Source: Pontixanthobacter rizhaonensis
GTDB lineage: Bacteria > Pseudomonadota > Alphaproteobacteria > Sphingomonadales > Sphingomonadaceae
Assembly (NCBI RefSeq): GCF_012972675.1
Contig: NZ_JABCRE010000002.1
Coordinates: forward strand, 175,001-239,000
Direction of reading: 5' to 3'
DNA length: 64,000 bases
The position numbers and the translations under genes were made by a program. Below, in pieces: positions 4,048 to 27,823 of this stretch. Positions within the stretch are counted from its first letter, which is position 1. Every line of letters begins with the position of its first letter. The notes under the pieces were generated by a model, which searched no databases, was not told the origin of the DNA, and saw only the letters and a program-made list of their open reading frames with translations.

Positions 4048-4060
4048 GGGATCTCCTTGC

Positions 4061-4264: not shown

Positions 4265-4303
4265 AAGGTTATCCCAACTGTAGTTTCGCAGATTGGAAGA
4301 TTG

Positions 4304-5539
4304 ATGTTTAAAGCTGTCCTCAACGCCGCCGTCGCTTCGCTTGCCTTGGCAGGCTGTGTCGCTGGCCCGGCACCGCAGAACTTTCACAGCAGCGCTTGGG
4401 CGCCTGGCCAAAGCGCGCCGCAAACAGAACAGCCCGATGGCCGTTGGTACGGTGAACAGGCATCTGGTGCAGGTACCGCTACGTGCAGTGCATCACCTAT
4501 CCGGCTTCCTGCGACCTTGAGCAGAGTTGATCCGGCAGCGTTGGCTGCCACTGCGCTAGTGCTGTCACCCGGCGACCGGCTGCAAGTCGATGTTGCTGGC
4601 GATGATGATATGCTGACCGGGGTGTACGCCATTCAAAATGACGGCACGTTGGCGCTTCGCAATTTTAAGTCTGTCCACGTCGCTGGCCTGACCGAGCAAC
4701 AGCTTACAGCCACCCTGCGCCGTGAATTGGTGAGTGCCGGTTTGATCCGCCCCCTTGCTTCGTCTGTCAGTGTGCGAACCATCGAAGCCAGCGGCGTATC
4801 AGTGGCCATTTCAGGTGCTGTGTTCGCGCCTGGAAGTGTCCGGCCTGGCGAGCGGAGCCCTGAAGGTAGAATTGGCCTGAAAGAAGGCCCGGCAACGGGT
4901 GATGCCAATGCGGGACGCACTTTATCAGCCGCCATACGGGCTGCAGCGGGCGTTCGCCCTGATGCAGATATCGGGCAGGTTTATCTGATCCGGGGCAATG
5001 AATATGCCGTGTTCGATCTTAACGGTTGGGCCGAGGGCTGGCCGGCAATGGACCCTACGCTGTCCGCCGGTGATCGGATCATTGTGCCGGAAACTGATTG
5101 CTTCAATGACAAGCTCGTTCGGCCGACTGCGATTACTCAACCGGGTATCCGTGTATTTATGTCTAACTTGACTCGCGGCGCGAATAATAACGCTGGTGCC
5201 GGGGTAGGGGAAAAGACAGGGTCGCTGCCATACGGCACACGCCTGCTGCAAGGACTTGTCGCGATGAACTGCGTTGGCGGCAGCTATATGCAGTCTGATC
5301 GCCGGGCAATCCTGATTTCGCGCAACCCGCGCAATGGCCAAAGCATCGTGATCGAGCGTGATATCGAGAAATTGGTCCGTGCCATCGACCGCGATGAAGC
5401 TGATCCCTACCTTATGCCCGGCGATGCTCTGGCTTGCTATGACAGCCGCTGGACGAATTTCCGCGAGGCGCTCAGCCTGGCATCCGATGTTGCCAATTCG
5501 GCAACGCCTGCAATCATTCTTGGTAATGCGGCAAACTGA
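4304..5539 (+). CDS. Polysaccharide export outer-membrane lipoprotein (Wza/BexD family)
   Basis: This 411-residue protein starts with a lipoprotein signal peptide ending in the lipobox LAGC (cysteine near residue 18). A polysaccharide export domain follows at about 80-150 (LSPGDRLQVDVAG...DMLTGVYAIQNDGTLALRN), then soluble-ligand-binding beta-grasp segments at about 155-270 and near 375. Family members form the outer-membrane exit pore for capsule or EPS. The ATG at 4304 is chosen over the TTG at 4301 because GGAAG at 4295 leaves almost no spacing to the TTG. The stop overlaps the next start by 1 nt (TGATG), so the genes are translationally coupled. A sigma-54-like promoter lies 40 nt upstream. 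The cysteine-containing C-terminal half is less typical of the family. Confidence 0.88.
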   Translation: MFKAVLNAAVASLALAGCVAGPAPQNFHSSAWAPGQSAPQTEQPDGRWYGEQASGAGTATCSASPIRLPATLSRVDPAALAATALVLSPGDRLQVDVAGDDDMLTGVYAIQNDGTLALRNFKSVHVAGLTEQQLTATLRRELVSAGLIRPLASSVSVRTIEASGVSVAISGAVFAPGSVRPGERSPEGRIGLKEGPATGDANAGRTLSAAIRAAAGVRPDADIGQVYLIRGNEYAVFDLNGWAEGWPAMDPTLSAGDRIIVPETDCFNDKLVRPTAITQPGIRVFMSNLTRGANNNAGAGVGEKTGSLPYGTRLLQGLVAMNCVGGSYMQSDRRAILISRNPRNGQSIVIERDIEKLVRAIDRDEADPYLMPGDALACYDSRWTNFREALSLASDVANSATPAIILGNAAN

Positions 5540-6948
5540 TGGAACAGGAAAACACCCAGCCGCGCCGGATCGTAAAATTCTGGATGCTTGTGCGTGACGG
5601 TTTGCCGTCTGTTGGCCGCTACCGCCGGTACATTATCGCGGTGCTGCCTCCGCTGGCGGCAATTTGGCTGCTGACGATCGCATATGTTGCCCTGGCGCCA
5701 ACGCGGTATGAAAGCGAAATGACGCTGATTTTGCCTGGTAGCGGCGTCGGTGGATCGTTGAACCTTGAATCTATCGGACAGGCTAGCGGCACTGCGGCTT
5801 CCGCATTCTCAAGTACGACCCTTAGCCCTACCGAGAATTACAAACGGCTGCTTATGTCCGACCGTGTCGTCAGTGCGGCGGCGGAACTTGCAGGCGAGGA
5901 GGCTGGCGCGTTTCCGCAGCCGAGCATTAAACTGGTCGATCAAACCAACCTTATCGCGGTTGATGTGACCGGCAGCAGCCCCGAGCAGGCACAGCAGCGC
6001 AATGCTGCGCTGCGCGAAGTGTTTTTGGCTGCGCTAGATGATTTGCGGAACGATGAAGCGGTGCACCGCGAAGAAGCAGACCAGGCCCGCATCGCAGCAC
6101 TTGCTGAAAAGGTGGAAGAAGCGCAACGTAAAGTCCTGGAGTTTCAGGGCCGGTCCGGCCTTGTCTCGCTAGACCAGTTTAACAACCGGATTGCGGCAAT
6201 GGATGATTTGAAAGCGCGGGAAAGAGAGGCGCGAACCGCCCGTAGCCAGAACGCCGCCGTCGCCGGCAGGCTTGCGTCAACGCTCCGTGTTTCAACCGGC
6301 ACTGCCAATCGCGCGCTGCGATTGTCTTCCGACCAGGCGTTCCAACAATTGTTGGGCCGGTATTCTGAGGTTCTGACCAAAGAAACCGAGCAGGGCGGAA
6401 CACTGGGCCCGGCCCATGCCAAAATGGAAGCTTTGAGATCGGAACGTGAGGAGCTGGAAGCTGCGTTATCCAAACGGGGCGCGACTGTTACCGGCCTGCG
6501 CTCTGCTACTGTGATGAAGTTCGCCGAACTCTCTGTCTCGGACACGCGCGCATCCTTGTTTGAAGGTCTTTTGCTGAGCGATAGTTCAAGCGCAGGCTCC
6601 AATGCGGCACTTGCGGAAATTCGCCGTCAAATCGGTCAACAATCGGCCAAGACGGGTGAGTTGGTAGAGCAGGCGTCAGAGCTTGCCGGTCTAACCAGAG
6701 AATTGCGGGTTGCAGAAGCGGTGTTCAGTTCAGCACTTGCGCGTGTAGACACCAATAAGTCAGATCCTTTCGCGTCTTATCCGCTTGTTCAGACTTTAGA
6801 GGCACCATCCTTACCGCGCACAAAAGCGTCACCTAAGCCTGTTTTCGCAATCGCCGGTGCATTTGCGGCGTCCATTCTCCTTCTAATCGGGTTCATGTTG
6901 CTATGGCTGCGTCAGCCAATCATCCGCAAAATCTTGCCGAACGTCTGA
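5539..6948 (+). CDS. Wzz/GumC-type EPS chain-length determinant
   Basis: This 469-residue inner-membrane protein has one transmembrane helix near 31-51 and a second near 437-458. A long periplasmic region between them is rich in coiled coil (about 175-260 and 285-320). This is the layout of polysaccharide co-polymerases, which set chain length and connect the polymerase to the export pore. The PTRYES motif after the first helix and the proline-rich LEAPSLPRTKASPKP before the second are typical. There is no C-terminal tyrosine-kinase domain with Walker motifs, so control by autophosphorylation is not built in. The gene overlaps the export lipoprotein by 1 nt and the polymerase by 46 nt. Confidence 0.87.
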   Translation: MEQENTQPRRIVKFWMLVRDGLPSVGRYRRYIIAVLPPLAAIWLLTIAYVALAPTRYESEMTLILPGSGVGGSLNLESIGQASGTAASAFSSTTLSPTENYKRLLMSDRVVSAAAELAGEEAGAFPQPSIKLVDQTNLIAVDVTGSSPEQAQQRNAALREVFLAALDDLRNDEAVHREEADQARIAALAEKVEEAQRKVLEFQGRSGLVSLDQFNNRIAAMDDLKAREREARTARSQNAAVAGRLASTLRVSTGTANRALRLSSDQAFQQLLGRYSEVLTKETEQGGTLGPAHAKMEALRSEREELEAALSKRGATVTGLRSATVMKFAELSVSDTRASLFEGLLLSDSSSAGSNAALAEIRRQIGQQSAKTGELVEQASELAGLTRELRVAEAVFSSALARVDTNKSDPFASYPLVQTLEAPSLPRTKASPKPVFAIAGAFAASILLLIGFMLLWLRQPIIRKILPNV

Positions 6949-8210
6949 TATCTCTCACGATACAGTCAACATGGCTGCTGTGGTTGATTGGCGGGCTGTA
7001 CATTGTCGGCCCGGTGCTGGGATGGGTTTTGGCAATGCTTGCGGTGCAGGAGCTGTATGTCGCGCCGGGCAAGGCGGAAGCAGAGCGACCGCCCAAGCCG
7101 GGATGGGTAATCCGACTGTGGTTGTGGGGCATGCTGGCAATGTTGGTCGTGCTATGGATCGGCCACAGCAATTTTGAACTGGGCGCAGCCAAAACGATCA
7201 AGTCTTCGATCGGTTGGGCAAAGGGGTGGGCATTGCTCGCCCTTTTCCCGTTTGCGGCGTCTGTCCTCTCGATCAGGCCAGAGATTATCTACCGCGCGGT
7301 TTGCAAGCTGGGCATGCAGACGTTGATTGTTCTTCCTGTATTCGTGCTGGCTCCATTTATCGGGCTTCCAGACACCTTATGGGTTTCACCATTGCAAATA
7401 GTAGGGGGGTCAGGGCCGGAGTATTTTGCGGCTATCCTCTACACTATTGAGCCAGGCGCAGGGACACCGCGGTGGCAGTTCTTCGCCCCGTGGTCGCCGG
7501 CGGCCGGGATGATTGCGGTCGTGTTTGTGCTTTTATCAGCGCAGGAGAAAGAGATCGGCTGGAAAAGCGTCGGGATAATCGCAGGTTTGGCGCTGGCGAT
7601 ATTGTCGCAGTCGAGGCTCGCGCTGGTCGCTTTGATAGTGGTGTTCCCGGTTCTTTTCGCGCTGGGGCGGACGCGCAGCCCCGTGGTCTGGATGATTGCG
7701 GCACCGGTTGTTTTGCTGGCGGGCTTTTTCGGGCCAACGCTGATCGAATTTGCAGATCAGCTGATGAGCGACTTCCGCGGTGCAAGAGCGGACTCTAGCC
7801 GTGTGCGCGAAGCGTTGGGCCGTATCGCTGTCGAACGCTGGAGCAATGAAGCGCCGTGGTTTGGTCATGGGGTGGTCGAAAACGGGCCGCACATGGTCGA
7901 ATATATGCCAATCGGCAGCCATCATAGCTGGTATGGCTTGCTATTCGTGAAGGGGTTGGCCGGCGTCATGGCATTGGCCGTACCGCTTGCGGCCAGCGCT
8001 GCGATGTTGGCGATTAAAGGAACCGCCGGCCATTTGGCGCGGACCGCGTTTGGCCTGGTGTTGGTCTTAGTGCTGTATAGCTTTGGCGAGAATCTGGAGA
8101 TATTGAGCTATTTGTATTGGCCTGCCCTGATTATCATCGGGACCGCGTTGAAAAGCGGCACGCCGGGCCAGAGCATCAGCTCTGAAGAAGCGCGATCCAC
8201 TGTCCAATAA
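6903..8210 (+). CDS. O-antigen ligase/EPS polymerase-like membrane protein (Wzy)
   Basis: This 435-residue protein is highly hydrophobic, with about ten predicted transmembrane helices. A large periplasmic loop near 275-345 contains the Wzy/WaaL-type segment with paired histidines (IGSHHSWYGLLFVKG). Family members polymerise repeat units or ligate glycans in the periplasm. With the export and chain-length genes just upstream, polymerase is the likelier role. The start (ATG 6903) lies inside the previous gene, an overlap of 46 nt; a later start would cut the first membrane helix. Its 3' end overlaps the convergent glycosyltransferase gene by 35 nt. Confidence 0.82.
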   Translation: MAASANHPQNLAERLISLTIQSTWLLWLIGGLYIVGPVLGWVLAMLAVQELYVAPGKAEAERPPKPGWVIRLWLWGMLAMLVVLWIGHSNFELGAAKTIKSSIGWAKGWALLALFPFAASVLSIRPEIIYRAVCKLGMQTLIVLPVFVLAPFIGLPDTLWVSPLQIVGGSGPEYFAAILYTIEPGAGTPRWQFFAPWSPAAGMIAVVFVLLSAQEKEIGWKSVGIIAGLALAILSQSRLALVALIVVFPVLFALGRTRSPVVWMIAAPVVLLAGFFGPTLIEFADQLMSDFRGARADSSRVREALGRIAVERWSNEAPWFGHGVVENGPHMVEYMPIGSHHSWYGLLFVKGLAGVMALAVPLAASAAMLAIKGTAGHLARTAFGLVLVLVLYSFGENLEILSYLYWPALIIIGTALKSGTPGQSISSEEARSTVQ

Positions 8211-9153
8211 TCTGCCCGCGCATACCCGACACTTCTTGCCGGGCTGCATGGCTCATTTGATCAAATGGAAGCGTTTGGAAGCGCTCTATCGCACGCATAA
8301 TATCGTCTGCGCTGTCGCATTTGGCGGCAAGACCAGCATTGCCGACTTGTTCTGGCAGCCCGTCTATATCCCCCACAATTATCGGTCTGGCAGCCAGCCG
8401 CGCTTCGGTGGCGACCAAGCCGAAGGCTTCCCATTTTGAAGGAACAATGACCGCGTCTGCGGACTTTAGAAACCCGCCGATATCGCTGATCGGACCGTAA
8501 GTGGTAATGTTGCTCGCCGCCTGCGCAGCGCGGTGCAAGTCCGCCTCGTCAGGACCGCTTCCGGCCAGCTGTAATTCAACTGAAGGCCCGATCTTGGCGA
8601 CGGCATCAATCAGCGCTGCGAAGTTTTTAACCTCGGAAAATCTGCCATAAGCAGCCAAACGCAGTGGCCTGCCGCTGCGCCTTTCGGGGGCGGGGATTGC
8701 AAGCAGCTCTTGCCGCCCGCTCCACGGATGGATTGTACGGCAGCGGCCCGGTTCCAATCCGACCGCGCCGGTCAGCCACTTTCTCTGCCCGTCCGAAACG
8801 CAGACAATTTCGTCAAAGTGCCGGAGCGCGAGGCGCAGCAACATTCTGAAGCGGTTGGTGTTTGGTACGTTATGGTGTTCAAACGACCGAGTGTAACTGT
8901 GTTCGATGTGAATTAAGCGCGCCTTCGGGTTCCGTAAACGAAGCGTCCAGAAGAACCCGATGCGTGCCCAGCTCGCCGGAAAATGTGTTATGATCACATC
9001 TGCATCGAGTTTCGGTGCCACATACGCATTCCGTGCAATTGGCACCGTATCCGATGATGCGCCGCGGGCCAGCTCGGGCTCGTCAAACACGCCCAACGCA
9101 CGGACCACGCCGCCCATCCCGAAATCGTCAAGCAGATGGACTATTTTCAACAT
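8176..9153 (-). CDS. Glycosyltransferase family 4
   Basis: This 325-residue protein has the GT-B fold signature of family 4. The N-terminal half begins IVHLLDDFGMGGVVR. The C-terminal nucleotide-sugar domain begins near LRLAAYGRFSEVKN, and SKWEAFGLVATEA carries the two glutamates of the E-x7-E retaining motif. It should add one sugar to the lipid-linked EPS repeat unit at the cytoplasmic membrane face. The ATG at 9153 overlaps the TGA of the upstream GT2 gene, so it is preferred to a TTG one codon earlier. It is the last gene of a four-gene operon starting at 12391. Its final 35 nt overlap the tail of the convergent polymerase gene. Confidence 0.9.
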   Translation of the reverse strand: MLKIVHLLDDFGMGGVVRALGVFDEPELARGASSDTVPIARNAYVAPKLDADVIITHFPASWARIGFFWTLRLRNPKARLIHIEHSYTRSFEHHNVPNTNRFRMLLRLALRHFDEIVCVSDGQRKWLTGAVGLEPGRCRTIHPWSGRQELLAIPAPERRSGRPLRLAAYGRFSEVKNFAALIDAVAKIGPSVELQLAGSGPDEADLHRAAQAASNITTYGPISDIGGFLKSADAVIVPSKWEAFGLVATEARLAARPIIVGDIDGLPEQVGNAGLAAKCDSADDIMRAIERFQTLPFDQMSHAARQEVSGMRGQIIGQWIALLQS

Positions 9154-10154
9154 CAAGCAGCGCCTTTGAGATAGGGTCGCATCAGCAGTTTGAACCGCTC
9201 GGCACCGATGATGGAACCGACTGCTACTGCGCTGGCTGTCACAAATGTCTTGACCGGTTCAGCGATAGCTATGGTCGGGGAAGCGGCGAGGGCACGTTTC
9301 ATCAAGTCACGGGCAAAGCCGATTTCGCCAAGCTGCAAGGCGCGCCGGGTAAGATAGCGCAGCTGATAGCCGCGTGCCGCCCGCCCGTGCTTTGCAACCA
9401 GTTCAGGTGCGAATTCAGTGGCTTTGCGGATCATCTTTTCCCAACTGACGAACTGATTGACGATATTAGCTGACAACGCGCCACCGACAATCCGGTAATC
9501 GGTCAATTGGCCTTCGATACCTTCAAATTGTACATTGTGGGCGCCTGCCAGACGGACCCAGAATTCGATATCTTCAGACTGGCGGAACGTCTCGTCGAAC
9601 CAGCAAGTCCGGCTTGGCTCATCAGGATGTGGAAATGCAGCCCGGTCAATTGCGGATTTCCGCAGCACCGCTGCACTGCCATTGCCTACAGGGTTTCGTT
9701 TCAGAATGTCACCTGCATCAACGTTGGTCAGTTTCGGTTTCATCGCAACCGACATCTTAACACCGTGCTGGTCCATCATGTCGGATCCTGCATAACTTAC
9801 CCCGATATTCCCGCTTGCACGAAGGTGAACATAGTGAAGCATGAGCTTTTCAGGATGATACCGATCATCGGAGTCCAAAAGGGCGATGAAAGGGGCGCGT
9901 GCCTCTGCAATTCCGGTGTTGCGTGCGCCGGGTAACCCGCGATTTGGCTGGCTGACGATCCGTATCCGCGGATCTTCATAGCTACGCGCAATCTGCATCG
10001 AACGATCATTACCGCCATCATCGACGATAATCAGTTCAAAGTCGGTAAGCGATTGGGCAAGAACAGAATCGATCGCTTCCGCAATATATTGTTCTACATT
10101 GTAGACCGGCATGACGACTGAAATTTTAGGTCGAGGGGCGTTGATGTGAGACAT
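9153..10154 (-). CDS. Glycosyltransferase family 2
   Basis: This 333-residue GT-A glycosyltransferase begins ISVVMPVYNVEQYIAEAIDSV. It shows the family 2 nucleotide-binding motif IIVDDGGNDRS, the metal-binding DSDD (FIALLDSDDRY) and an acceptor-region ED (QSEDIEFWVRLA). It probably transfers one sugar of the EPS repeat. It resembles the GT2 encoded just upstream (10188-11117) in length and layout, including the C-terminal segment YQLRYLTRRALQLG versus TYFRYLSRRALRTG, so the two look like diverged duplicates. Donor and acceptor sugars cannot be told from the sequence. Confidence 0.9.
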   Translation of the reverse strand: MSHINAPRPKISVVMPVYNVEQYIAEAIDSVLAQSLTDFELIIVDDGGNDRSMQIARSYEDPRIRIVSQPNRGLPGARNTGIAEARAPFIALLDSDDRYHPEKLMLHYVHLRASGNIGVSYAGSDMMDQHGVKMSVAMKPKLTNVDAGDILKRNPVGNGSAAVLRKSAIDRAAFPHPDEPSRTCWFDETFRQSEDIEFWVRLAGAHNVQFEGIEGQLTDYRIVGGALSANIVNQFVSWEKMIRKATEFAPELVAKHGRAARGYQLRYLTRRALQLGEIGFARDLMKRALAASPTIAIAEPVKTFVTASAVAVGSIIGAERFKLLMRPYLKGAA

Positions 10155-10187
10155 GATGAAATCCTAATCTGAAGAAGTAAATTTGCG

Positions 10188-11117
10188 TTATGCGAATACG
10201 CGAGTGCGGACCCGTGCTGGCATCGCCATTCCGGCCAATGCACCGGCCAGGGTCAGGCTGCCGCGGCGCGGGTCGGACATGAAACCGCGCGGGCTAAGGG
10301 TGAAACCTTGTGCAGCGTATTGGACAGCTTTGGAGGCGGGCCCACCGGTGCGCAGGGCGCGACGTGACAGGTACCGGAAGTAGGTGGCCTCGGCTTGGCG
10401 TACATTGATGTGACAAGCATAGCGTGCGGCGAGCATGCGCCAGCCAGCCAGCATTTTCTCCAAGTCTGCCGACAGGCCGTCATCGCTCATCCGGTAATCG
10501 GTGAGTGTTTCAGCGATCCCTTCGATAACGCCGCCACTCGCAACCAATCTGGCCAGCCATTCTTGATCTTCGGCATAGTTCATGCCTTTTTCAAAGCCGC
10601 CATTGCGTAAAAACGCCTTGCGGGTGACGACCAGGTTCGATGTTGTGCAAACAGGGTTGTCGGCAATGATCTGGTCGATCTGGATCGGGCCGGCTGGAAC
10701 GGAGCTGAAGGTCTTTATTTCGCCGGTTTTCGCTGTAATCGTCTCGCGGAAAGCGATCCGGGCGAAGCTGGCATCCAAAGACGGTTTGGCCTGATGCAGC
10801 TGATGATGGATGACAAGTTTATTGACGCGCCAAGCATCGTCGGCGTCGAGGAAGGCCAGCAGCGCGCCGCGGGACATTTCGGCTCCCAGATTACGGGCCT
10901 CCGATACGCCGCGATTTTCCTGAGCGATAACGCGAATACGCTCGTCTTCGCTCGCCAGTGACAGAGCAAGCTGGAGAGAACGGTCGGTTGAACCATCATC
11001 CACCAGGATCAGCTCCCAATCTTGCAGGCTTTGATTGATGACGCTGGCAACAGCAGTCGTGAGCGTTTCATACGCATTATAAACGGGCATCATTACTGAG
11101 ATAAGTGGAGTGTTCAT
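10188..11117 (-). CDS. Glycosyltransferase family 2
   Basis: This 309-residue protein has the same GT-A layout as its downstream neighbour: start ISVMMPVYNAYETL, nucleotide-binding VDDGSTDRS, metal motif FLDADDAW, and acceptor-side AEDQEWLARL. It should add one sugar to the EPS repeat unit on the cytoplasmic side. The start overlaps the flippase stop by 4 nt (ATGA). A 33-nt gap follows before the next GT2 gene. Sugar specificity is unknown. Confidence 0.9.
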   Translation of the reverse strand: MNTPLISVMMPVYNAYETLTTAVASVINQSLQDWELILVDDGSTDRSLQLALSLASEDERIRVIAQENRGVSEARNLGAEMSRGALLAFLDADDAWRVNKLVIHHQLHQAKPSLDASFARIAFRETITAKTGEIKTFSSVPAGPIQIDQIIADNPVCTTSNLVVTRKAFLRNGGFEKGMNYAEDQEWLARLVASGGVIEGIAETLTDYRMSDDGLSADLEKMLAGWRMLAARYACHINVRQAEATYFRYLSRRALRTGGPASKAVQYAAQGFTLSPRGFMSDPRRGSLTLAGALAGMAMPARVRTRVFA

Positions 11118-12391
11118 GATGGGATCCTTTCAAGGGATGATGTGTGATTTGCCGTGGTCGCAAGGTCCGCGATGGCTTTGGGAATAAAGGTAAGTGCGAG
11201 GCCGGTGACGTATCCGGCACACGCAGCTTCAAACGAAAACTGCGCGCCGATGACGAGGCCGGTCAGCGCAGCGATAGTGGCGGCGGCGCTGATCTGTGCT
11301 TCACGGCCTGTGCTTTGAGCGGCGCGGTAGAGCGCACTGAGGCTCGCCGCTGCGAAAAGCGGGATGCCGCCCAGGGCCAGGATGGAAACATAGAATGATG
11401 AAGATGCCCATGTTTCGCCGAACAGGATCGGCACATAAATTGGAGCGAGCGCTGCTTGAGCAATGATAATCGGCGCGAAGAACAGCAGTCCGAAACCCGT
11501 CACCCGGCGTGCTTCCAGCAAACGTGCGGCTGAAGTTTTGATCCGAGCAAGATGCGGAAACAGAACGATACCAAATGCGGATACTAGCGATTGGGCAATG
11601 CCGAGGCCGGCGTTGAATGCGAAGTAGTAAATGCCCAATACTTTGGTGCCGAAAATTGCACCAATCAGAAGCTTGTCTGCTTGCGCGCGAAGGGCACTCA
11701 TGATCTCGCTGCCGAGAATGCCCGCGGCATAGAACCGGAATTCGGATAGTGGGGCAAAACCTGCGGCTGGTTTATTGGACCAGCTACGTGCGCGGCGTAC
11801 CATGACTGTCCAGACCGGCGCAGTCAGCAGTTTTGGTAGCGCGATTGCCCAAGCGCTCGGCCATACAACAACAAGGATCATGGTCAGAATGTGGTCAAGG
11901 ATGGTTTGGCTTGCGCCGATCCGGGCTGTCGTCGCCAAATTGCCATCGCGCATCAGCAGGAAGACTTGAACCAAGCCGGGCGGCATGATGAAATAGACCA
12001 CAGAGAGAACAGCCAGCATGATCGCTGCATCCGCCTGGGCAAAGCCAAGACCTAGAATGGCCGCGATCAGCATTTGAATAATTGCAACGAGCGCACAGAC
12101 GCCCCAGAACAGGCGAAGGGCGGTATTGCAAACAGCGTCCAGCTCCTCGTCGGTTGCGACGATGATGCGTTGGCCGATGCCAGCATTGGCAAGTACGCGA
12201 ACAAGTTCAAAGATGCTGAGCGAGAGAGCTGCAGTCCCTAGAATGAGCGGGCTGGTGAAGCTGGCGATAACAATGATCGCAACCAACCGGACGATCCGGG
12301 TCATGGCCTCTGCCGAAGCATATGCAAGGAAGGCCCTGATTAAAGGCTCCATCCCTGCTGGCAGTCTTTTTGCAATTGTTGTCACCGACAT
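11114..12391 (-). CDS. Wzx-type lipopolysaccharide/EPS flippase
   Basis: This 425-residue protein is hydrophobic throughout, with about 12 transmembrane helices and the arrangement of the polysaccharide transport (MATE/MVF) superfamily, including PPGLVQVFLLMRDGN and a C-terminal FGETWASSSFYVSILALGGI. Such proteins flip undecaprenyl-linked repeat units to the periplasm for the Wzy polymerase. It is the first gene of the minus-strand EPS operon (flippase, GT2, GT2, GT4). GGAGAG stands about 6 nt before the ATG. A minus-strand sigma-54-like promoter (12438-12424) lies about 35 nt upstream. Confidence 0.87.
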   Translation of the reverse strand: MSVTTIAKRLPAGMEPLIRAFLAYASAEAMTRIVRLVAIIVIASFTSPLILGTAALSLSIFELVRVLANAGIGQRIIVATDEELDAVCNTALRLFWGVCALVAIIQMLIAAILGLGFAQADAAIMLAVLSVVYFIMPPGLVQVFLLMRDGNLATTARIGASQTILDHILTMILVVVWPSAWAIALPKLLTAPVWTVMVRRARSWSNKPAAGFAPLSEFRFYAAGILGSEIMSALRAQADKLLIGAIFGTKVLGIYYFAFNAGLGIAQSLVSAFGIVLFPHLARIKTSAARLLEARRVTGFGLLFFAPIIIAQAALAPIYVPILFGETWASSSFYVSILALGGIPLFAAASLSALYRAAQSTGREAQISAAATIAALTGLVIGAQFSFEAACAGYVTGLALTFIPKAIADLATTANHTSSLERIPS

Positions 12392-12423
12392 GGTGTCTCT
12401 CCAATGAGTTCAGCCCCACCGTT

Positions 12424-12438
12424 CCAAGACTCGTGCCA
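12424..12438 (-). promoter_or_regulatory. Sigma-54-like promoter for the flippase-glycosyltransferase operon
   Basis: Read on the minus strand, TGGCACG-AGTC-TTGG matches the consensus TGGCACG-N4-TTGC with a single change in the -12 element. The predicted start is near 12412, about 20 nt before the flippase ATG at 12391. Confidence 0.62.
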
Positions 12439-12441
12439 GTT

Positions 12442-12563
12442 TGCGAAAACGTATATAATCCAATAGCTTATCGATTTTCGGATGGAGTATCCCAGATGGC
12501 AACTGTTGCAATTTGCGAAAAGTATATGGAGCTGTTGCAAAACGAGATTGCAAATTGCGAAAA
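12442..12563. promoter_or_regulatory. Repeated TGCGAAAA motifs in the divergent EPS intergenic region
   Basis: The exact 8-mer TGCGAAAA occurs at 12442-12449, 12514-12521 and 12556-12563. An inverted relative (TCGATTTTCG) lies at 12471-12480. Two copies continue similarly (ACGTATATAATCC and AGTATATGGAG). The region separates two divergent EPS units, both with sigma-54-like promoters, and the same core occurs before the third EPS unit (4148). These are good candidates for upstream activator sites shared by both promoters. Apart from these and the promoters, the 293-nt region 12392-12684 shows nothing else. Confidence 0.55.
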
Positions 12564-12634
12564 TCGCACTTCAAGTCTCGCATCCAGCGGCTTGGATTGA
12601 CCTAAGGTATTGAATTATAATAGATATGTGAAAC

Positions 12635-12650
12635 TGGCACATACAATGCA
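12635..12650 (+). promoter_or_regulatory. Sigma-54-like promoter for the GT26-phosphoglycosyltransferase gene
   Basis: TGGCACA-TACA-ATGCA matches TGGCACG-N4-TTGCW, with the invariant GG and GC at the correct spacing. The predicted start is near 12662. AGGGA at 12671 is a ribosome-binding site 9 nt before the ATG at 12685. Confidence 0.7.
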
Positions 12651-12684
12651 GATGGTATCCCAACGCAATTAGGGAACATCAATT

Positions 12685-14118
12685 ATGTCATACTCAGCAA
12701 TCAATCTTGATGCCGCCGCATATGAAAGAATCTCGATGGAAGAGGCGACAGACGGCGTGCTCTGTTGGACTGAAAAAGCGAAACTGTTTGGTCTGCCGCT
12801 GGTATCAAGCACGAAAACAGAGGTAGCCGCACAGCTTGTCGCTGCAGCGGCGCGTGGGCAGCGATTGATTGTCAACTTTGCCAATGCACATTGCATCAAT
12901 ACTCTTAAAGCAGACAAAACATACGCTTCGGCGTTGCGTGCCAGCGACCTGATCCTGCCGGATGGTAGCGGCATGCGGATCGCATCCAAGCTGGTGGATC
13001 AGCCATTCAAAGAAAATCTCAACGGGACTGATCTCTTCCCGGAAATTTGCCATGAAGCCGCACAGCACGGTCAGTCGATCTTTCTGTTGGGCGGGGCACC
13101 TGATGTTGCGGAAGACGCAGCGCGCACCATGCAAGACCGGGTCAAGGGGCTTGAGATTGCAGGCTGTGCAGACGGCTTTTTCACCGATGAGGAAGAGGAT
13201 GGGCTGATCGATCTGATCAACGGGTCCGGCGCAGCCATCCTGATGGTTGGATTTGGTGTGCCGCTGCAAGAAAAGTGGATTGTTCGCAACCGTCATCGCT
13301 TGAACGTTCCAGTCGTTATGGGTGTCGGCGGATTGTTTGATTATTATTCCGGCCGAATTCCGCGTGCGCCTCATGCTATCCGTGCCGTGGGGTGTGAGTG
13401 GGCCTGGCGACTGGCGATGGAACCTCGCCGTCTTGCTCGGCGCTATATCGCCGGTAACATCGTGTTCCTCGGCCATACATTGCACAATGCGTGGACCGAA
13501 ACAGTTGCAAAGCCGGTCTTTTCACCGGCGACTAAGCGATCTCTCGATATTTTCGGTGCCTTCATGGCGATCATGATGCTTTTACCGCTCTTCTTGTTGG
13601 TCGCGCTTGCTATCAAGCTGGAAGATCGCGGGCCTGTATTTTTCAAACAGCTGCGCATCGGTGAACATGGCCGTAGCTTCCCGATGTATAAATTCCGCTC
13701 AATGTACACTGACTCGGAGGAACGCCGGGCTGCGCTGTTGAAAGACAGCGAGCGCGACGGGATCTGCTTCAAAATGCGCAATGATCCGCGCATCACCAAG
13801 ACCGGAAAATTCATCCGCCGGTTTTCGATTGATGAACTGCCCCAGCTGCTGAACGTATTATTCGGTCATATGTCACTTGTTGGCCCACGTCCTGCACTGG
13901 GTTCTGAAGTATCAGTCTATCAAAAATCGGCCTATCGCCGTTTGGGCGGCAAGCCGGGTATCACGTGCATTTGGCAAGTGTCAGGCCGGGCAGAAATCCC
14001 ATTCCAGAAACAGCTGGCAATGGATGTCGCCTATCTGAAGAACCGCGGTATCATAACCGATCTTTGGTTGTTGATCCGGACTATTCCGGCAGTGCTGACC
14101 GGGCGTGGCGCTTATTAA
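12685..14118 (+). CDS. Fusion of WecG/TagA/CpsF (GT26) glycosyltransferase with WcaJ-like phosphoglycosyl transferase
   Basis: This 477-residue protein joins two normally separate enzymes. Residues about 33-255 are a GT26 domain (LPDGSGM at 91-97, VGFGVPLQEKWI at 188-199, GVGGLFDYYSG at 213-223). From residue 284 on it is a bacterial sugar transferase: KRSLDIFGA, one membrane helix at about 290-310, KFRSM (336-340), DELPQLLNVL and SLVGPRPA. The C-terminal part should load the first sugar-phosphate on undecaprenyl phosphate; the GT26 part probably adds a second sugar. The total length equals the sum of the two families, so it is a true fusion without a linker loss. It stands alone on the plus strand with its own sigma-54-like promoter. 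Sugar identities are unknown. Confidence 0.9.
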   Translation: MSYSAINLDAAAYERISMEEATDGVLCWTEKAKLFGLPLVSSTKTEVAAQLVAAAARGQRLIVNFANAHCINTLKADKTYASALRASDLILPDGSGMRIASKLVDQPFKENLNGTDLFPEICHEAAQHGQSIFLLGGAPDVAEDAARTMQDRVKGLEIAGCADGFFTDEEEDGLIDLINGSGAAILMVGFGVPLQEKWIVRNRHRLNVPVVMGVGGLFDYYSGRIPRAPHAIRAVGCEWAWRLAMEPRRLARRYIAGNIVFLGHTLHNAWTETVAKPVFSPATKRSLDIFGAFMAIMMLLPLFLLVALAIKLEDRGPVFFKQLRIGEHGRSFPMYKFRSMYTDSEERRAALLKDSERDGICFKMRNDPRITKTGKFIRRFSIDELPQLLNVLFGHMSLVGPRPALGSEVSVYQKSAYRRLGGKPGITCIWQVSGRAEIPFQKQLAMDVAYLKNRGIITDLWLLIRTIPAVLTGRGAY

Positions 14119-14133: not shown

Positions 14134-16224
14134 TTACTGATCTTTGATCATCGCTTCAAAAAGATCGCCGCACGCTTCGAGCGTCGCGGCGATTTTTTGT
14201 TTGAGCAGAGCAAATGGTTCGCCATCCAAGGGGGCGCTGGCCTCCCTGAATGTGGCGATTGCCGCGAGCAAGCCGATTGCGCCGATATTGCCTGCTATGC
14301 CCTTCAATGCATGGGCTTGCCGGTCTGCGGCATCGGTATCTTTTTCCGCTACAGCCGCCTCTAGCTTGCTGCCATAATTCAGCAGATCTTCCCGCACAGC
14401 CGCCAGAAACTTCTCTCGAAACTGCACTGGCAAGGCCTCGAAGGCTTCGCGAAAGCGCCGCAAATCAAACAGGCTTCCGGTTTCATTACCGCCGTCTTGC
14501 GGCATCATCGCGGTTGTCAGCGCTGCTCGCAATTCGGCCAGCTGAATCGGTTTGGCCAAACATGCCGACATTCCTGAGGCGAGCAGCCGATCGCGTTCGG
14601 CCTGAAGGCTGTGCGCTGTCACGCCAATCACCGGCGTTCTCGATTGCGGCAAGTCGGATGCGCGAATGTGCCGGACGGCTTCTTCACCTGTCATCACAGG
14701 CATTTGGACATCCATCAAGATCGCGTCAAATTGCTGGGACAAAGCGGCCTCTACAGCCTCCAGTCCATTGACCGCAGTTTCAACCCGGCACCCAAGGCGT
14801 TCGCAAAAGCCGGTTATGACATACCGGTTGCTTTCGGTGTCTTCCGCAATCAGGATTGTCGGCTGGTCGCCAGCCTTATTGCGTAAAAAGCCTGTTTCTT
14901 TGGCATCGTCTGCCTCGTGCACTTGGAGCGGAAGCGAAACAACAAGGGTCGCAGCGGGCGATGCGCTGATGTCAATTACCCCTTGCATCGCGGCAATAAT
15001 GCGTCCCGCCCGGCGCAATTGCGGCTCGGTTGCGGCCAGTTCTTTCTTGCCCTGCGCGTCGATATCTGCGGCTAGTCGCCCGGCAATCATCGATATGCAG
15101 AGCCCGTCCTTCCATGTCATGTCGAGCTTCACGTCGCCCGCCGCAGAAAGGCCGTAACCGATCAGATTATCGAGCGCTTCGCGTAAACGGCTAGCATCGA
15201 CAAATGCTTTGGTGGGCAGCGCGCCGTCTATCGCTATCGTCAGGACACCGCCATCCTCGCTTTCCGATGATGCGCGATCCCAGTAATCTTGCGTTTGTTC
15301 CGCCAGTTGTTCCAAATCTGTTGGGTTTGGAAACAGGGTAACGTCGGTTGACCGGCCCTCTGCCTCATCAATGACTTCGTTTACCAGAGACCCGAGACGT
15401 TCCGCCGCACGTGTTGCGAATGCCAGTTTTTGGCCGTCCTCTGCTGACCGTTCTTCTATCGAAAGCAAGTCCATCATTCCGGTGAGCGTGTTAAGCGGCG
15501 TCCGGAATTGGTGCGCCATATAGGACAAGAAGTCCGTCCTGGCCTTCAGTGCAGTCTCCGCCTGAGCCTGCGATTTCGCAAGGGTGCGAGACAGCCGGTC
15601 TAGCTCTATAACTCTTCGTTCCGCCCGCAATTGCAACGCACGGACCGCTCTTTGGTTGGCCCGGCTTTCGGTTATGTCGCGAACAGAGCCGGAGACAGAT
15701 TGGAAAGTTCCATCGGCCCCCACCTCTTTGCGCAACTTCCAACTAAGCCACCGCAATTCCCCATCAGGCCGCACTATGCGGTGTTCAAAACTATGGTCTG
15801 TGTCCGCGCTCATCTGTTCAAAGAATTGCACCGAGCTACGGCTAATTCGCCCTCGGTCCAACGGATGTATGAGGGATATCAGATATTCCGGATCGATTGT
15901 GACATCCTCGGCAACGCCCAGAATGCGGTTCAGTTGGACGGAGCTATGATACGGCTTTCCGCGTTCTGCATAAATCGTCGCAAAGCCGCCAACCCGCTGC
16001 GCCGCGAGTAGCTTGGCACTTTCGATATCAAGCCGTTCGGCCAGTTCGCTTTCCCGCCGTTGCAGGTCGCGATTGGCCTGATCCAGCTCATGCATTCGGC
16101 CTTCAAGAGCCGTTTCGGCATCGGCCAATGCAGCTTGCGCTCTGGCCAATCGGCGTTCGAGGATCTGCGCGCGTTTTTCCAGCGGAATGTCGTCAAAAGG
16201 CGTGTCAGTCATCTGCTGAGCCAT
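14134..16224 (-). CDS. Hybrid sensor histidine kinase with degenerate ATP-binding domain, receiver and Hpt
   Basis: This 696-residue protein has no obvious membrane helix. In order it has an N-terminal coiled coil (about 15-75), a PAS domain (about 75-190), a second coiled coil, a HisKA domain with H238 (AHQFRTPL), an ATPase-like region (about 300-435), a receiver (455-575; D505, K558) and a C-terminal Hpt domain with H638 (AHALKGIAGN). The ATPase region has no recognisable G1 (DxGxG) or G2 (GTGLGL) boxes and only a poor N box, so autophosphorylation is doubtful. The receiver and Hpt look intact. The gene overlaps the kinase gene upstream by 20 nt. It may work as a phosphorelay module fed by that kinase, with the NtrC regulator at 2114 as a possible target (inference). 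Confidence 0.88.
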   Translation of the reverse strand: MAQQMTDTPFDDIPLEKRAQILERRLARAQAALADAETALEGRMHELDQANRDLQRRESELAERLDIESAKLLAAQRVGGFATIYAERGKPYHSSVQLNRILGVAEDVTIDPEYLISLIHPLDRGRISRSSVQFFEQMSADTDHSFEHRIVRPDGELRWLSWKLRKEVGADGTFQSVSGSVRDITESRANQRAVRALQLRAERRVIELDRLSRTLAKSQAQAETALKARTDFLSYMAHQFRTPLNTLTGMMDLLSIEERSAEDGQKLAFATRAAERLGSLVNEVIDEAEGRSTDVTLFPNPTDLEQLAEQTQDYWDRASSESEDGGVLTIAIDGALPTKAFVDASRLREALDNLIGYGLSAAGDVKLDMTWKDGLCISMIAGRLAADIDAQGKKELAATEPQLRRAGRIIAAMQGVIDISASPAATLVVSLPLQVHEADDAKETGFLRNKAGDQPTILIAEDTESNRYVITGFCERLGCRVETAVNGLEAVEAALSQQFDAILMDVQMPVMTGEEAVRHIRASDLPQSRTPVIGVTAHSLQAERDRLLASGMSACLAKPIQLAELRAALTTAMMPQDGGNETGSLFDLRRFREAFEALPVQFREKFLAAVREDLLNYGSKLEAAVAEKDTDAADRQAHALKGIAGNIGAIGLLAAIATFREASAPLDGEPFALLKQKIAATLEACGDLFEAMIKDQ

Positions 16225-19200
16225 TCAAGAACGCGGTCAGCAAATCAACGGATATGCCTCCAGACATTTGATCGCCGTCTTCAGCGGTGACAGAGCTTAT
16301 GGCGATTGCCTTGGCGCCTGGAAACTGCCGTTCAAGTGTTACCGGCAGAATGGCCGTGTCATCATAGAGAACCACATCAATCTGCGTGTCGACCGATTTT
16401 GCTTCCTGAATAGATTTTACGCCCTGCACGTCAAAACCTAGCTCATCCAGCACGATTTCAGTGGCGATCCGGCTGGTTGCAGCGGCTTCGATGACTATCG
16501 CCGTTTTGCCGGCACCGGGCCGGACAGAGGATGCTGCACTTTCGGCTTTTAGTGCAAGTTTTAGCCAAAAGCTGCTTCCTTCGCCGGGCGTGCTAGATGC
16601 GCCGACTTCGCCGCCCATCGCGTGGGCCAAGTCTCGGCAGATCGACAGTCCCAAGCCGGTCCCGCCATAATCAAGTTGCGTAGTTGCTTCTGCTTGTTCA
16701 AATTTCTCGAACAGCCGGTCCAGCTTCTCCGGCGCGATCCCAATGCCATCATCGGAAACGGTGAACAGCAGCTCAACCGTTTCTCCCGAAGCAGATTCCA
16801 ATGCCTCGCACTCAATTCGGACTGTGCCGTTACCCACAAACTTAACCGCATTGCTGGTGAAGTTTGCCAAAATTTGTTGAATTCGGGTGGGATCACCCAG
16901 TAGCGTTCCGCGGAAGCTTGACCGTGTTTCGATCTTGCCCTCGTTGCGCTTTGCGAGAGGGACAAAAAGCTCGGCAGTCTGGCGGATGAGTGCAGCCGGC
17001 TCGAAAGGACGGTGATCCAGAATGACCTTACCGCTCTCCAACCGTGCTTGCTGCAACACGTCGTCAAGAATTCGCATCAATGCCTGCGCCGAACTTTCAA
17101 TCAGATCGAGCGCGCGTTCTTTCTCGCGGGCCGATCCGCCGCTGCGCATCTGATCAAGCATTCCCAAAATCCCGCTCATCGGAGTGCGGATTTCATGCGA
17201 CACTGAAGCAAGCAGATTCATCCGCATTTCCGCCGCTTGCTGTGCTTGATCTCTGGCCGCTACCAGCTTCGCTTCGGCTTGCTTTTCCTCAGTAATTTCG
17301 CGGGCGATGCCGAAGTAACCAATAACCTCTTCTGTCCCCGCTGTTGTGGCGGCGGCGATGGGTTCGCCTTTGATCTGAATGAATGAGGCACCGCCGCCTG
17401 GGGCATCGAGCTGCGCGACAACATCAAATTGTGTTTTGGCCGCAACCGCCTCAAGAATTGTATCGGCAGTGCCGTTACCTTGGTCGGTTTTGAATTGGTT
17501 GAGTATCCGGTCCAGCTTCAAAGGTTTGTCGATCGGCAGGCTGAACTGGTCACCAATCCAGCGCGAGATCGTCAGAGCCTCATTGTCCAGATCATAGGTG
17601 AAATGGCCGAGCATTCCGGTATCTTCGGCCATATTCAAAAGCCGGAGATTTTCCTCCATCTTCGCAATTCTGCGGTACTCGTCGCTGCTATCGCGAACGA
17701 TGTAGGCATACCCGTCCGTTTGCCCTTCTTCGTTCTGGATGACTTGAATAATTTCGGTCGCCCAAAATGACCTGCCGTTGCCGCGGTATCGGCGTGGAGC
17801 CTGAAAGAGCCTTCCTTCTTCCTCAACCTTGGTGAGTAGCTGTTTGAGCAAAGCTATTGAGTCTTCCGCGGGGTCAAAAATTTGGCGCAGCCCTTTGTCG
17901 TTGCGCTCATCCCAGTGGAAGTGCTCCTTGGCTGCACGGTTGGCGCGCCTGATTTCTCCATTTTGATCGAGTAAAAGGATCGCGTAATCATCAATCGCAT
18001 CCACCATGGTGTCGAATGATTGAGACATACGTAACCGTTCGCGGGAGACGCGCGATTCCATCGCATCAAATGCCCGGTTAAGCCGGATAATTTCATCATC
18101 GTTTGTAGATTGCCCTTCGCTTTCGCTGGCAGAATAGGACGAGATACTATCTGCGCGCTCAGCAAGGCGTTTGAGCGGCACGGCGAGTTGCCACCGCGAG
18201 AAGATGATGAGGAACAAGGCAAACGCGGCGGTGGCAACGGCGCCCGCAAACAGCACGGATCGGGCAGCCTCAAACGCTTGCCCGCGCACTTTGTCGCCCG
18301 CAATCACTGAAACGATGAACCATTTGGGCTGATCCATCTGGACAAATGAGTAATATTGGTCGCTGGCTTCCAAATAACCCGATGTGGCCTTCCCTTGGCT
18401 TTGCTTCAGCAAGCTCCACAGGGCCGTCAGAGCCGGATCTTGGGAACTATCCAGGTCGAGAAAGTCACCGGTCTGTGCGTTGGATTGAACGGTATATTGA
18501 GGGTGCCTGATCAGTTGGCCGCTATTCGTGATCACGATTTGCGACGTTTCAAGCGTCCTGCTCTCTTCTCCGGTGTCAGGAAAAATAGTGTCGAGTAACA
18601 CACTGGAACCCCAAGCCCCCAGATGTTCACCGTCCACCCGAACGGGCATCATACATCCGGTGGTCCAAGTCTTGCGTTCTTTATCATATAAAATCGGCTG
18701 AAGACTGGTGCACCGCATCTCTCCGGCCGGATTATTTGCCGGAAGAGTGATGGTCGAAAATTCCTCGTCTTGAAACTCCAAATCGGTCGGCGCTTCTTTG
18801 CGATAGAAAAGCAGATTGTCAGGCCGCTCCGGGGCGAACATTATCAGGTCGTTGTCCGGTGAAAAGAAATAGAGGTTGTTGACCTTTTTCGGCAGTCCTT
18901 CGGCCATTGCCGTCAACGTATCAAATGCTGCCAACAACTTCGCGCGGCGATCTGCTGTAACAGCTTCGTCCGCTATGAATGCACCATATCCGCGCGGCGA
19001 AATGCCTGCGGCATCGCCTGTCCACAGACGGTCTGCGCTTCTTCTGGTTCCGTCACCAAACCTTGGGAAAGCCCGGTCAAAGCGGGCGGCTCCACTGGGC
19101 GGCGCTGCAAGAGCAGAAGTCATTAACTCCGCAGCTTTTTTCTGAGCGTCAGCAATTTCTTCAAATTGAACGGCGAGCTCTTGCTGTGAAAAATCCCGTC

Positions 19201-19354
19201 CTTCGTCGAGCAGGGCGATGGTGGAAGAGATCGCCCGCTGGCGCGCGCTTTCATATGCTATCCAAGTGAGGGCACTGAATAACAGTATTGCAGCGGGCAA
19301 AATCAAAGCGATCGCCCGGCCACTGAGAGTTCGGAGTTTTATATTGTCGAACAC
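16205..19354 (-). CDS. Membrane-bound hybrid sensor histidine kinase with pseudo-receiver
   Basis: This 1049-residue protein has one helix near 14-33, a large periplasmic sensor region of Cache type (about 34-363), a second helix near 366-386, HAMP (about 388-442), two PAS domains (about 445-560 and 570-690), then HisKA and HATPase. The catalytic core is complete: H720 in SVSHEIRTPM, N box NFTSNAVKF (831-839), G1 DDGIGI (868-873) and G2 GGTGLGL (897-903). The final receiver-like part (950-1045) lacks the usual acidic pair at its start (VIEAAAT) and shows no conserved lysine, so it is probably not a normal phospho-acceptor. The gene starts with GTG and a weak ribosome-binding site, so the start is uncertain. 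It is followed, with a 20-nt overlap, by the receiver-Hpt protein gene. Confidence 0.88.
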   Translation of the reverse strand: MFDNIKLRTLSGRAIALILPAAILLFSALTWIAYESARQRAISSTIALLDEGRDFSQQELAVQFEEIADAQKKAAELMTSALAAPPSGAARFDRAFPRFGDGTRRSADRLWTGDAAGISPRGYGAFIADEAVTADRRAKLLAAFDTLTAMAEGLPKKVNNLYFFSPDNDLIMFAPERPDNLLFYRKEAPTDLEFQDEEFSTITLPANNPAGEMRCTSLQPILYDKERKTWTTGCMMPVRVDGEHLGAWGSSVLLDTIFPDTGEESRTLETSQIVITNSGQLIRHPQYTVQSNAQTGDFLDLDSSQDPALTALWSLLKQSQGKATSGYLEASDQYYSFVQMDQPKWFIVSVIAGDKVRGQAFEAARSVLFAGAVATAAFALFLIIFSRWQLAVPLKRLAERADSISSYSASESEGQSTNDDEIIRLNRAFDAMESRVSRERLRMSQSFDTMVDAIDDYAILLLDQNGEIRRANRAAKEHFHWDERNDKGLRQIFDPAEDSIALLKQLLTKVEEEGRLFQAPRRYRGNGRSFWATEIIQVIQNEEGQTDGYAYIVRDSSDEYRRIAKMEENLRLLNMAEDTGMLGHFTYDLDNEALTISRWIGDQFSLPIDKPLKLDRILNQFKTDQGNGTADTILEAVAAKTQFDVVAQLDAPGGGASFIQIKGEPIAAATTAGTEEVIGYFGIAREITEEKQAEAKLVAARDQAQQAAEMRMNLLASVSHEIRTPMSGILGMLDQMRSGGSAREKERALDLIESSAQALMRILDDVLQQARLESGKVILDHRPFEPAALIRQTAELFVPLAKRNEGKIETRSSFRGTLLGDPTRIQQILANFTSNAVKFVGNGTVRIECEALESASGETVELLFTVSDDGIGIAPEKLDRLFEKFEQAEATTQLDYGGTGLGLSICRDLAHAMGGEVGASSTPGEGSSFWLKLALKAESAASSVRPGAGKTAIVIEAAATSRIATEIVLDELGFDVQGVKSIQEAKSVDTQIDVVLYDDTAILPVTLERQFPGAKAIAISSVTAEDGDQMSGGISVDLLTAFLNGSADD

Positions 19355-27337: not shown

Positions 27338-27823
27338 ATGCTTAGCATCAGCGTGAATGGCAAACCGGAAGAGCTGGACGTTGATCCCGCAATGCCCATC
27401 TTGTGGGCGGTACGTGAGCAGCTTGGCCTGACCGGCACCAAATTCGGATGCGGCATTGCGCAATGCGGGGCCTGCACAGTGCATTTGGACGGGCAGCCTG
27501 TCCGCAGCTGTTCCACCCCGATCTCTGCCGCTGATGGCAAAGCCATTACGACAATCGAAGGTATTGCTGAGGCGGATGGCACGCTCAGCAAAGTGCAACA
27601 GGCCTGGATAAGCGAGCAAGTGCCGCAATGCGGATATTGCCAGTCTGGCCAGATCATGTCGGCCACAGCCTTGCTGAAAGAGACACCTAACCCAACCGAC
27701 GAACAGATCGACGCTGCGATGAAAGGCAATGTCTGCCGCTGCGGGATGTATGGCCGTATTCGCAAAGCCATTAAAGTGGCAGCGGGCAGTGAACCCTCCG
27801 GTTCTCAGGAGGCATCGGCATGA
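27338..27823 (+). CDS. iorA: 2Fe-2S subunit of an IorA-type molybdenum hydroxylase
   Basis: This 161-residue protein carries two [2Fe-2S] clusters. The ferredoxin-like cluster uses C38, C43, C46 and C58; the C-terminal helical cluster uses C98, C101, C133 and C135 (CGYCQSGQ and CRCGMYGR). It matches the small subunit of isoquinoline 1-oxidoreductase and related aldehyde oxidases, which moves electrons from the molybdenum centre outward. Its stop overlaps the start of the large subunit by 4 nt. The substrate of this enzyme is not evident, so the symbol denotes family only. No FAD subunit gene is present, as usual for the Ior type. Confidence 0.9.

Follow-up and report, generated by a model that had tools for sequence, protein, structure and literature searches.

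How can a hybrid histidine kinase that has lost its ATP-using domain still take part in a phosphorelay, and which protein would supply its phosphate? The question is raised by two overlapping genes on the minus strand of a 64,000-nucleotide stretch of the Pontixanthobacter rizhaonensis genome (contig NZ_JABCRE010000002.1, positions 175,001 to 239,000; hereafter the window), which encode a 1049-residue hybrid kinase, HK1, and a 696-residue partner, HK2. The initial annotation proposed that the defects of these proteins are complementary and that phosphate passes between them. Our analysis indicates that the constant feature among relatives is a predicted kinase-dead, relay-competent HK2, the receiver defect of HK1 in the window being one outcome of several. 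We favor the possibility, to which we assign a probability of roughly 0.62, that HK2 is a kinase-dead relay hub fed by HK1, with output through a LuxO-like regulator to exopolysaccharide (EPS) genes and gating by the H-NOX protein in response to nitric oxide (NO).

Domain states of the two kinases

The features of the two genes, in which CA denotes the ATPase domain, are as follows.

14134-16224 (likely start 16212), minus strand: HK2, 696 amino acids, with coiled coil, PAS, HisKA, dead CA, receiver and Hpt
16000-16179, minus strand: HK2 long N-terminal helix, residues 16-75, strongly conserved (alignment, model)
15655-15999, minus strand: HK2 PAS region, residues 76-190 (Pfam PAS_3, model)
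15361-15543, minus strand: HK2 HisKA/DHp, residues 228-288 (Pfam, alignment)
15511-15513, minus strand: HK2 H238, acidic neighbour replaced by Gln, T242 kept
14905-15339, minus strand: HK2 degenerate CA, residues 296-440, without N, G1 or G2 boxes (alignment, model, hhalign)
14518-14856, minus strand: HK2 receiver, residues 457-569, with D505 (14710-14712) and K558 (Pfam, alignment)
14182-14409, minus strand: HK2 Hpt, residues 606-681, with H638 (14311-14313) (Pfam)
16205-19354, minus strand: HK1, 1049-amino-acid hybrid kinase (open reading frame listing, Pfam)
N-terminal half of HK1, minus strand: Cache-like and HAMP-like (dCache and HAMP matches, both under the Pfam cut-off)
PAS of HK1, minus strand: one by Pfam, a second PAS-like stretch judged by eye
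17030-17224, minus strand: HK1 HisKA, residues 711-775 (Pfam, E 6e-14)
17195-17197, minus strand: HK1 phospho-His H720 (box read in alignment)
16550-16897, minus strand: HK1 HATPase_c, residues 820-935, N, G1 and G2 boxes intact (Pfam, E 1e-28)
16220-16507, minus strand: HK1 pseudo-receiver, residues 950-1045 (alignment, predicted fold, hhalign)
16361-16363, minus strand: HK1 D998, the acceptor-aligned Asp, kept (alignment)

The two open reading frames (ORFs), HK1 first, lie and overlap as annotated. They share 20 bp, which shrinks to 8 bp with a start of HK2 at Met5, as its homologues suggest. HK1 has the complete kinase core that was ascribed to it (HEIRTP at 720, NFTSNAVKF at 831, DDGIGI at 868 and GGTGLGL at 897). 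Its tail has no Pfam receiver match at E up to 1, and the acid pair (now E-A) and the Lys are gone, as had been noticed, but D998, which was not mentioned then, is kept in line with the acceptor Asp in the HK1 alignment. Profile comparison with the HK2 receivers identifies this tail as a receiver remnant (hhalign, 95.6%, E 1e-8; crossed controls 0.1-0.2%), so that with receiver homology and its catalytic residues gone it is of the pseudo-receiver type. Its structure model has four strands, and the alpha4-beta5 part is not ordered (predicted local distance difference test score, pLDDT, about 38 there) and apparently lost.

In HK2, Pfam matched the PAS, HisKA, receiver and Hpt domains and found no HATPase at E up to 1; the G1 and G2 boxes, reported missing, are absent in the alignment as well. 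Residues 292-440 are a true ATPase-domain remnant, aligning to the CA domains of HK1 proteins (hhalign, 98.2%, E 5e-14; crossed controls 0.1-0.2%) and showing in the model (mean pLDDT 83) the alternating alpha/beta pattern typical of such domains. The receiver is intact (Response_reg, E 1e-22; acid pair E461-D462, D505 and K558). Rows for structure prediction (35 and 31 segments out of 78 usable ones) came from the named-genome scan described next. A sequencing artefact was rejected because both frames are open and homologues show the same state.

Other searches with HK2 were uninformative: as a single-protein query against named genomes it returned distant hybrid kinases only (best 80 of 578 matches), no plasmid match spanned 80% of it, and the sequence of the dead CA region had no meaningful match in the PDB. 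Full-length Foldseek returned generic histidine kinases, with ShkA at the top and RetS among the 50 matches listed, which we do not take as evidence of kinship. Just two Hpt domains of the genome pass the Pfam cut-off, that of HK2 and that of a CheA-type ORF. The latter (48654-51047, minus strand; Hpt, H-kinase_dim, HATPase_c and CheW) is the strongest Hpt match of the genome.

Loss of the ATPase domain among HK2 orthologues

The same defects recur across orthologues, and for this reason we consider those of HK1 and HK2 to be beyond chance. Among 397 genomes of one family, HK2 found a match in 32 with the threshold set at E 1e-40; to these we added four CA-intact relatives that fell below the threshold and share the same gene setting, and we left out the broken copy of G151, which gave 23 CA-less and 12 CA-intact HK2s. 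The CA-intact relatives are about 27-34% identical, and in treating them as orthologues we relied equally on gene setting and sequence. The CA domain is degenerate in nine of the CA-less proteins and deleted in 14, where HisKA runs straight into the receiver. In a tree computed for 30 HK2s (G151 and G021 dropped) after the CA and H-box columns had been removed from the alignment, deletion of the CA domain needs two changes, both forced by well-supported branches. The ratio of CA identity to receiver identity was 0.52 in nine dead-CA rows versus 0.83 in 10 CA-intact rows.

The amino acid directly behind the phospho-His varies with the state of the CA domain: it is Asp in 12/12 CA-intact proteins and acidic in 0/23 CA-less ones, which have Q, N, H, Y, K, A or R instead. 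H238 itself is kept in 22 of the 23 and is Asp in G321. R241, T242, P243, D505 and K558 are present in 35/35 HK2s, and H638 in 23/23 CA-less and 10/12 CA-intact proteins (G021 and G043 have no Hpt); the receiver and Hpt that had been called intact in the window are thus conserved throughout the CA-less group. These patterns support the view that HK2 would not be a self-sufficient kinase, and from the state of the CA-less orthologues it follows that phosphate would have to reach HK2 from another protein. With the ATPase domain and the acidic neighbour both gone, H238 has probably been withdrawn from kinase reactions. That it persists together with T242, at the position usual for HisKA phosphatase activity, would be compatible with a structural role or one as a phosphatase. 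A ChpT/Spo0B-like use of H238 was rejected, since proteins of that kind typically keep an acidic residue after the His.

The kinase upstream of HK2

The gene upstream of HK2 could be evaluated in 22 CA-less loci (G104 lies at a contig end), and in 21 of them an HK1-type gene is found directly upstream on the same strand. The other is G152, where opposite-strand ORFs separate HK2 from a MASE1/CHASE-type kinase about 4.1 kb upstream. Judged by first-start ORFs, which make any overlap a maximum, five of the 21 pairs are separated by 132-350 bp and the other 16 abut or overlap. None of the 12 CA-intact HK2s has a kinase core directly upstream, four of these loci spanning less than 3 kb on that side; in G021 a further hybrid kinase is encoded beyond the regulator gene. 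In G174 a PilZ-domain protein (L153:10904-11572) is found upstream of a CA-intact HK2. With gene order conserved to this extent, the idea that HK1 and HK2 are chance neighbours was rejected, and transfer between the two proteins appears to be the simplest reading, as the initial annotation had supposed.

The HK1 proteins themselves are less uniform. All 21 match HATPase_c at E 0.01, and 18 of 21 aligned sequences keep the N, G1 and G2 boxes. The exceptions, G055, G137 and G196, are short and come from one genus; their HATPase_c scores are 28, 37 and 24 bits (cut-off 26.4, two of three above), and the phospho-His is gone from two of them and kept in G137. From the boxes, we read these three as probable lost kinases. 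Receiver matches were found in seven HK1s and Hpt matches in seven (G183 has an Hpt slightly under the cut-off); 12 HK1s have a decayed receiver and two have none. All 12 decayed receivers retain Asp at the acceptor place and three still have the Lys. Complementary defects do not, therefore, hold as a general rule: seven of 21 HK1s match both the receiver and the Hpt models, and three have lost the kinase boxes. In G183, G373, G152 and G301 (L138, L139, L141 and L143) the place of HK1 is taken by a MASE1/CHASE/PAS hybrid kinase that has receiver and Hpt domains, identified by Pfam on L138 and L141 and by alignment for L139 and L143.

The H-NOX gene and the LuxO-like regulator

An H-NOX gene, a LuxO-like regulator and an EPS locus, none of which figured in the initial annotation, lie beside the two kinase genes in the window and suggest a likely role for the pair.

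2114-3502, minus strand: LuxO-like response regulator with receiver, sigma-54 AAA+ domain and Fis helix-turn-helix (Pfam, NCBIfam, hhalign)
3505-4194, minus strand: H-NOX (HNOB) ORF; homologues begin at its residue 50, position 4047 (HNOB, 106 bits, cut-off 25.5)
4140-4264, plus strand: region upstream of the EPS export gene, with one-mismatch LuxO-type sites (4140-4194) and a sigma-54-like site (4249-4264), weak
4301-8210, plus strand: EPS genes for a Poly_export protein, a weakly EpsF-like ORF (no Pfam family) and a Wzy_C protein (Pfam, NCBIfam)
8176-12391, minus strand: three glycosyltransferases (one GT1/4-type, two GT2-type) and a Polysacc_synt_3 flippase-like protein
12392-12684: divergent regulatory region, with sigma-54-like sites at 12423-12438 (minus) and 12635-12650 (plus), one mismatch each
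12506-12518 and 12548-12560: exact LuxO-type sites in the divergent region
12685-14118, plus strand: WecG/TagA and sugar transferase fusion (EPS)
27820-30084, plus strand: molybdopterin-dependent xanthine/aldehyde dehydrogenase-like protein with Tat signal
53987-56137, minus strand: TonB-dependent siderophore receptor

The regulator has the domains of the LuxO/SypG type, and LuxO is its best NCBIfam model; we call it LuxO-like, not LuxO, because the score of 532 bits is under the 800-bit equivalog cut-off. H-NOX is present in 58 of the 397 genomes, in 32/32 with HK2 versus 26/365 others (Fisher 1e-31, a statistic that, like the linkage counts, ignores shared ancestry; the tree supports few independent events). 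In 28 of the 32, no more than 12 kb separates H-NOX from HK2, the two being directly adjacent in G010, G021, G167 and G255 and about 4-5 kb apart in G180; H-NOX is on a different contig in G104, G119 and G355. In the window the distance is 9.9 kb, and the EPS locus sits between the H-NOX/regulator pair and HK2.

The regulator accompanies HK2 in 31 of the 32 genomes (E 1e-90 or better). The remaining genome, G151, has broken copies of HK2 and HK1, a truncated H-NOX and a short remnant of the regulator that gives no match at E 1e-90. Five of the 26 genomes with H-NOX and no HK2 match at E 1e-40 carry the regulator; G043, G046, G090 and G313 have the whole module with a CA-intact HK2, and G231 has fragments only. 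In G231 H-NOX and the regulator are split and the export gene is truncated. To judge from these remnants (G151, L147; G231, L166), decay seems to affect the module as a whole.

Compared with H-NOX-associated hybrid kinases, HK2 has the H-NOX linkage and the intact receiver and lacks the autophosphorylating combination of HisKA and ATPase domain. From the conservation of the N-terminal helix of HK2 we infer that H-NOX may dock there. In two loci with H-NOX and without the HK2 module (L158, L161) the gene after H-NOX is GGDEF-EAL-like by eye and has a short N-terminal helix that resembles that of HK2, the profile match being not significant.

The exopolysaccharide locus and its promoter sites

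The flippase (wzx) and WecG genes are divergent; with gene starts set by homology, 29 of 33 loci yielded a defined intergenic region. Allowing up to two mismatches for sigma-54-like sites and one for LuxO-type sites (palindromes counted on both strands), 26 of the 29 regions have sigma-54-like sites on both strands and 25 have LuxO-type sites. The regions together hold 59 sigma-54-like and 85 LuxO-type sites in 8,449 bases, versus 391 and 124 in the other 591,038 bases of these loci. As the remaining locus sequence is mostly coding, we also used dinucleotide shuffles of the regions themselves, which gave means of 6.1 sigma-54-like and 3.8 LuxO-type sites and maxima of 14 and 16 in 100 runs.

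The Vibrio LuxO site is TTGCAWWWTGCAA (PMC10162802, from the part of the text available). The exact LuxO-type pattern TTGCAWWWTGCGA occurs twice in the whole 2.79 Mb genome, both times in the 12392-12684 region, and a reversed control of it had zero occurrences in the same 2.79 Mb. Candidate targets of the regulator encoded at 2114-3502 thus appear to combine TTGCAWWWTGCAA-type upstream sites with a putative sigma-54 promoter. In the window alone, one-mismatch sigma-54 sites number nine versus 3.7 expected, a count reached in 4/100 shuffles. The weight of the promoter sites would lie in their position and conservation, the window counts being weak.

A model and its alternatives

From the domain states, the orthologue pattern, the linkage and the promoter sites we propose the following. 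HK2 would descend from an H-NOX-associated hybrid kinase whose ATP-using domain was lost. HK1 would sense through its membrane/Cache-like half and autophosphorylate at H720; phosphate would then pass to D505 and on to H638 of HK2, and from H638 to the receiver of the LuxO-like sigma-54 regulator, which would activate the EPS operons from the LuxO-type sites. NO-bound H-NOX (3505-4047) would dock on HK2 and gate the flow, most likely by switching the DHp/receiver part to a phosphatase, such that NO lowers polysaccharide output. An NO sensor and a membrane sensor would, in this way, probably control the EPS cluster jointly.

Several observations weigh against this proposal: (i) G055, G137 and G196 (L129, L131 and L132), with the kinase boxes of HK1 lost, have no obvious donor left for the HK2 receiver, and HK2 may need another donor; (ii) the seven HK1 relatives with receiver and Hpt matches could bypass HK2; (iii) retention of H238 in 22/23 CA-less HK2s exceeds expectation if the residue is functionless; (iv) a profile of the HK2 N-terminus, made from 29 of 32 rows, scored H-NOX-adjacent cyclases at 5.5-8.5 bits, which is not significant among 4,292 ORFs; (v) in G360 H-NOX and the regulator are about 150 kb from HK2; (vi) one-mismatch LuxO-type sites in the window (24 versus 16.6, reached in 7/100 shuffles) are not clearly over chance; and (vii) the shared ancestry mentioned above reduces the force of the association and linkage counts.

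The second of these points bears on an unlikely alternative in which the main task of HK2, under H-NOX control, is to drain the regulator as a phosphatase or phosphate sink, with HK1 signalling elsewhere or to the regulator directly. Consistent with this idea, T242 is present in every HK2 and, in V. parahaemolyticus, the phosphatase activity of HqsK requires the receiver Asp and not the His (PMC6759604, in the text available). However, HK1 of the window is without a working receiver or Hpt and HK2 has the sole Hpt over the Pfam cut-off besides the CheA-type one; a forward route around HK2 is therefore not obvious.

The retention of H238 could also reflect a heterodimer, a route into HK2 that the initial annotation had offered, in which the ATPase domain of HK1 would phosphorylate H238 of HK2 in trans, followed by transfer to D505. 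HisKA is present in both proteins, and H238 (22/23) and R241, T242 and P243 (23/23) persist in CA-less HK2s, but the neighbouring Asp of all 12 CA-intact proteins is never acidic in the 23 and G321 has replaced the His by Asp, which makes this entry point improbable. That HK1 and HK2 are mere neighbours in separate pathways, with an unrelated kinase feeding HK2, is very improbable: the adjacent HK1 is without kinase boxes in G055, G137 and G196 and is a different MASE1/CHASE-type kinase in G183 (Pfam) and in G373 and G301 (alignment), but the pair keeps its order and strand in 21 of the 22 CA-less genomes that could be evaluated, 16 of these 21 pairs leave no gap between the first-start ORFs, and no second kinase core was found directly upstream of the 12 CA-intact HK2s (four with less than 3 kb of upstream sequence).

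Relation to known systems

Among the top results listed we found no CA-less H-NOX partner in related literature searches, none of which was aimed exactly at one, and no alphaproteobacterial H-NOX/LuxO/exopolysaccharide module in a search on those subjects; most subscription journals were outside the coverage in both cases. Searches directed at sphingomonads gave nothing related.

The closest likeness to our kinase-dead hub model is with the Vibrio kinases HqsK and HahK, which according to the available parts of the published descriptions are H-NOX-linked, have a HisKA-receiver layout and a LuxO/SypG-type sigma-54 output and, for HahK, act on polysaccharide genes (PMC6759604, PMC12369376, PMC3759921). 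In V. parahaemolyticus the route is HqsK to LuxU to LuxO, with NO/H-NOX inhibiting kinase autophosphorylation (PMC6759604, same extent), and in V. fischeri HahK signals through SypF (Hpt) or LuxU to SypG and the syp polysaccharide, the mechanism of H-NOX action being described as unknown in the accessible text (PMC12369376). Even the His and Asp positions are similar (H222/D506 in HahK and H214/D499 in HqsK, as published in those excerpts, and H238/D505 in HK2). By the same descriptions, however, HqsK is a demonstrated active kinase and both proteins use a separate Hpt (LuxU or SypF), whereas HK2 has no working ATPase domain and an Hpt of its own.

In the RcsC-RcsD-RcsB system phosphate passes from the RcsC receiver to the RcsD Hpt, whereas in the window the receiver sits on the dead partner, HK2, and that of the active kinase, HK1, has decayed. 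RcsD is not known to have a receiver; HK2, with its receiver intact, therefore departs from the RcsD type (inactive HATPase plus Hpt, without a receiver). What the two systems share is an active hybrid kinase with a partner that has an inactive HATPase and an Hpt, the RcsD HATPase being less conserved than the RcsC domains (PMC7418988, as far as the available text goes). The RscS-SypF-SypG system of V. fischeri offers a likeness in several kinases acting on one Hpt hub, which by itself can complement in the case of SypF, and in a sigma-54 regulator, a polysaccharide locus and LuxO/SypG-type sites (PMC12369376, PMC10162802, accessible portions); SypF is described there as a sensor kinase/phosphatase, and loss of the ATPase domain, unlike in HK2, is not among the features given in those portions. 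Precedent for one hybrid kinase feeding another comes from CheA3, which phosphorylates the CheS3 receiver (PMC3868531, available text). The tail of HK1, with receiver homology and neither acid pair nor Lys, resembles the pseudo-receiver of ShkA, but ShkA also has a genuine receiver (PMC12632262, available text), which HK1 of the window lacks, and in HK1 the alpha4-beta5 part is apparently lost.

The series of CA-intact, CA-dead and CA-deleted HK2s, the latter two beside an added kinase, may record the passage from hybrid kinase to relay hub inside one bacterial family. Tentatively, and at slightly less than even odds, we suggest that H-NOX here governs a protein unable to autophosphorylate, with NO as a valve, through access or phosphatase, on a receiver-Hpt hub to which a separate membrane kinase supplies the phosphate, the ATPase domain having been shed at least twice. 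A partner without an ATPase domain would isolate the effect of H-NOX on the remaining DHp, receiver and Hpt, and its loss in HK2 therefore makes that effect directly testable. An H-NOX-to-LuxO-type relay is already known in Vibrio; what appears new here is that the H-NOX-linked kinase has, judged by its sequence, turned kinase-dead.

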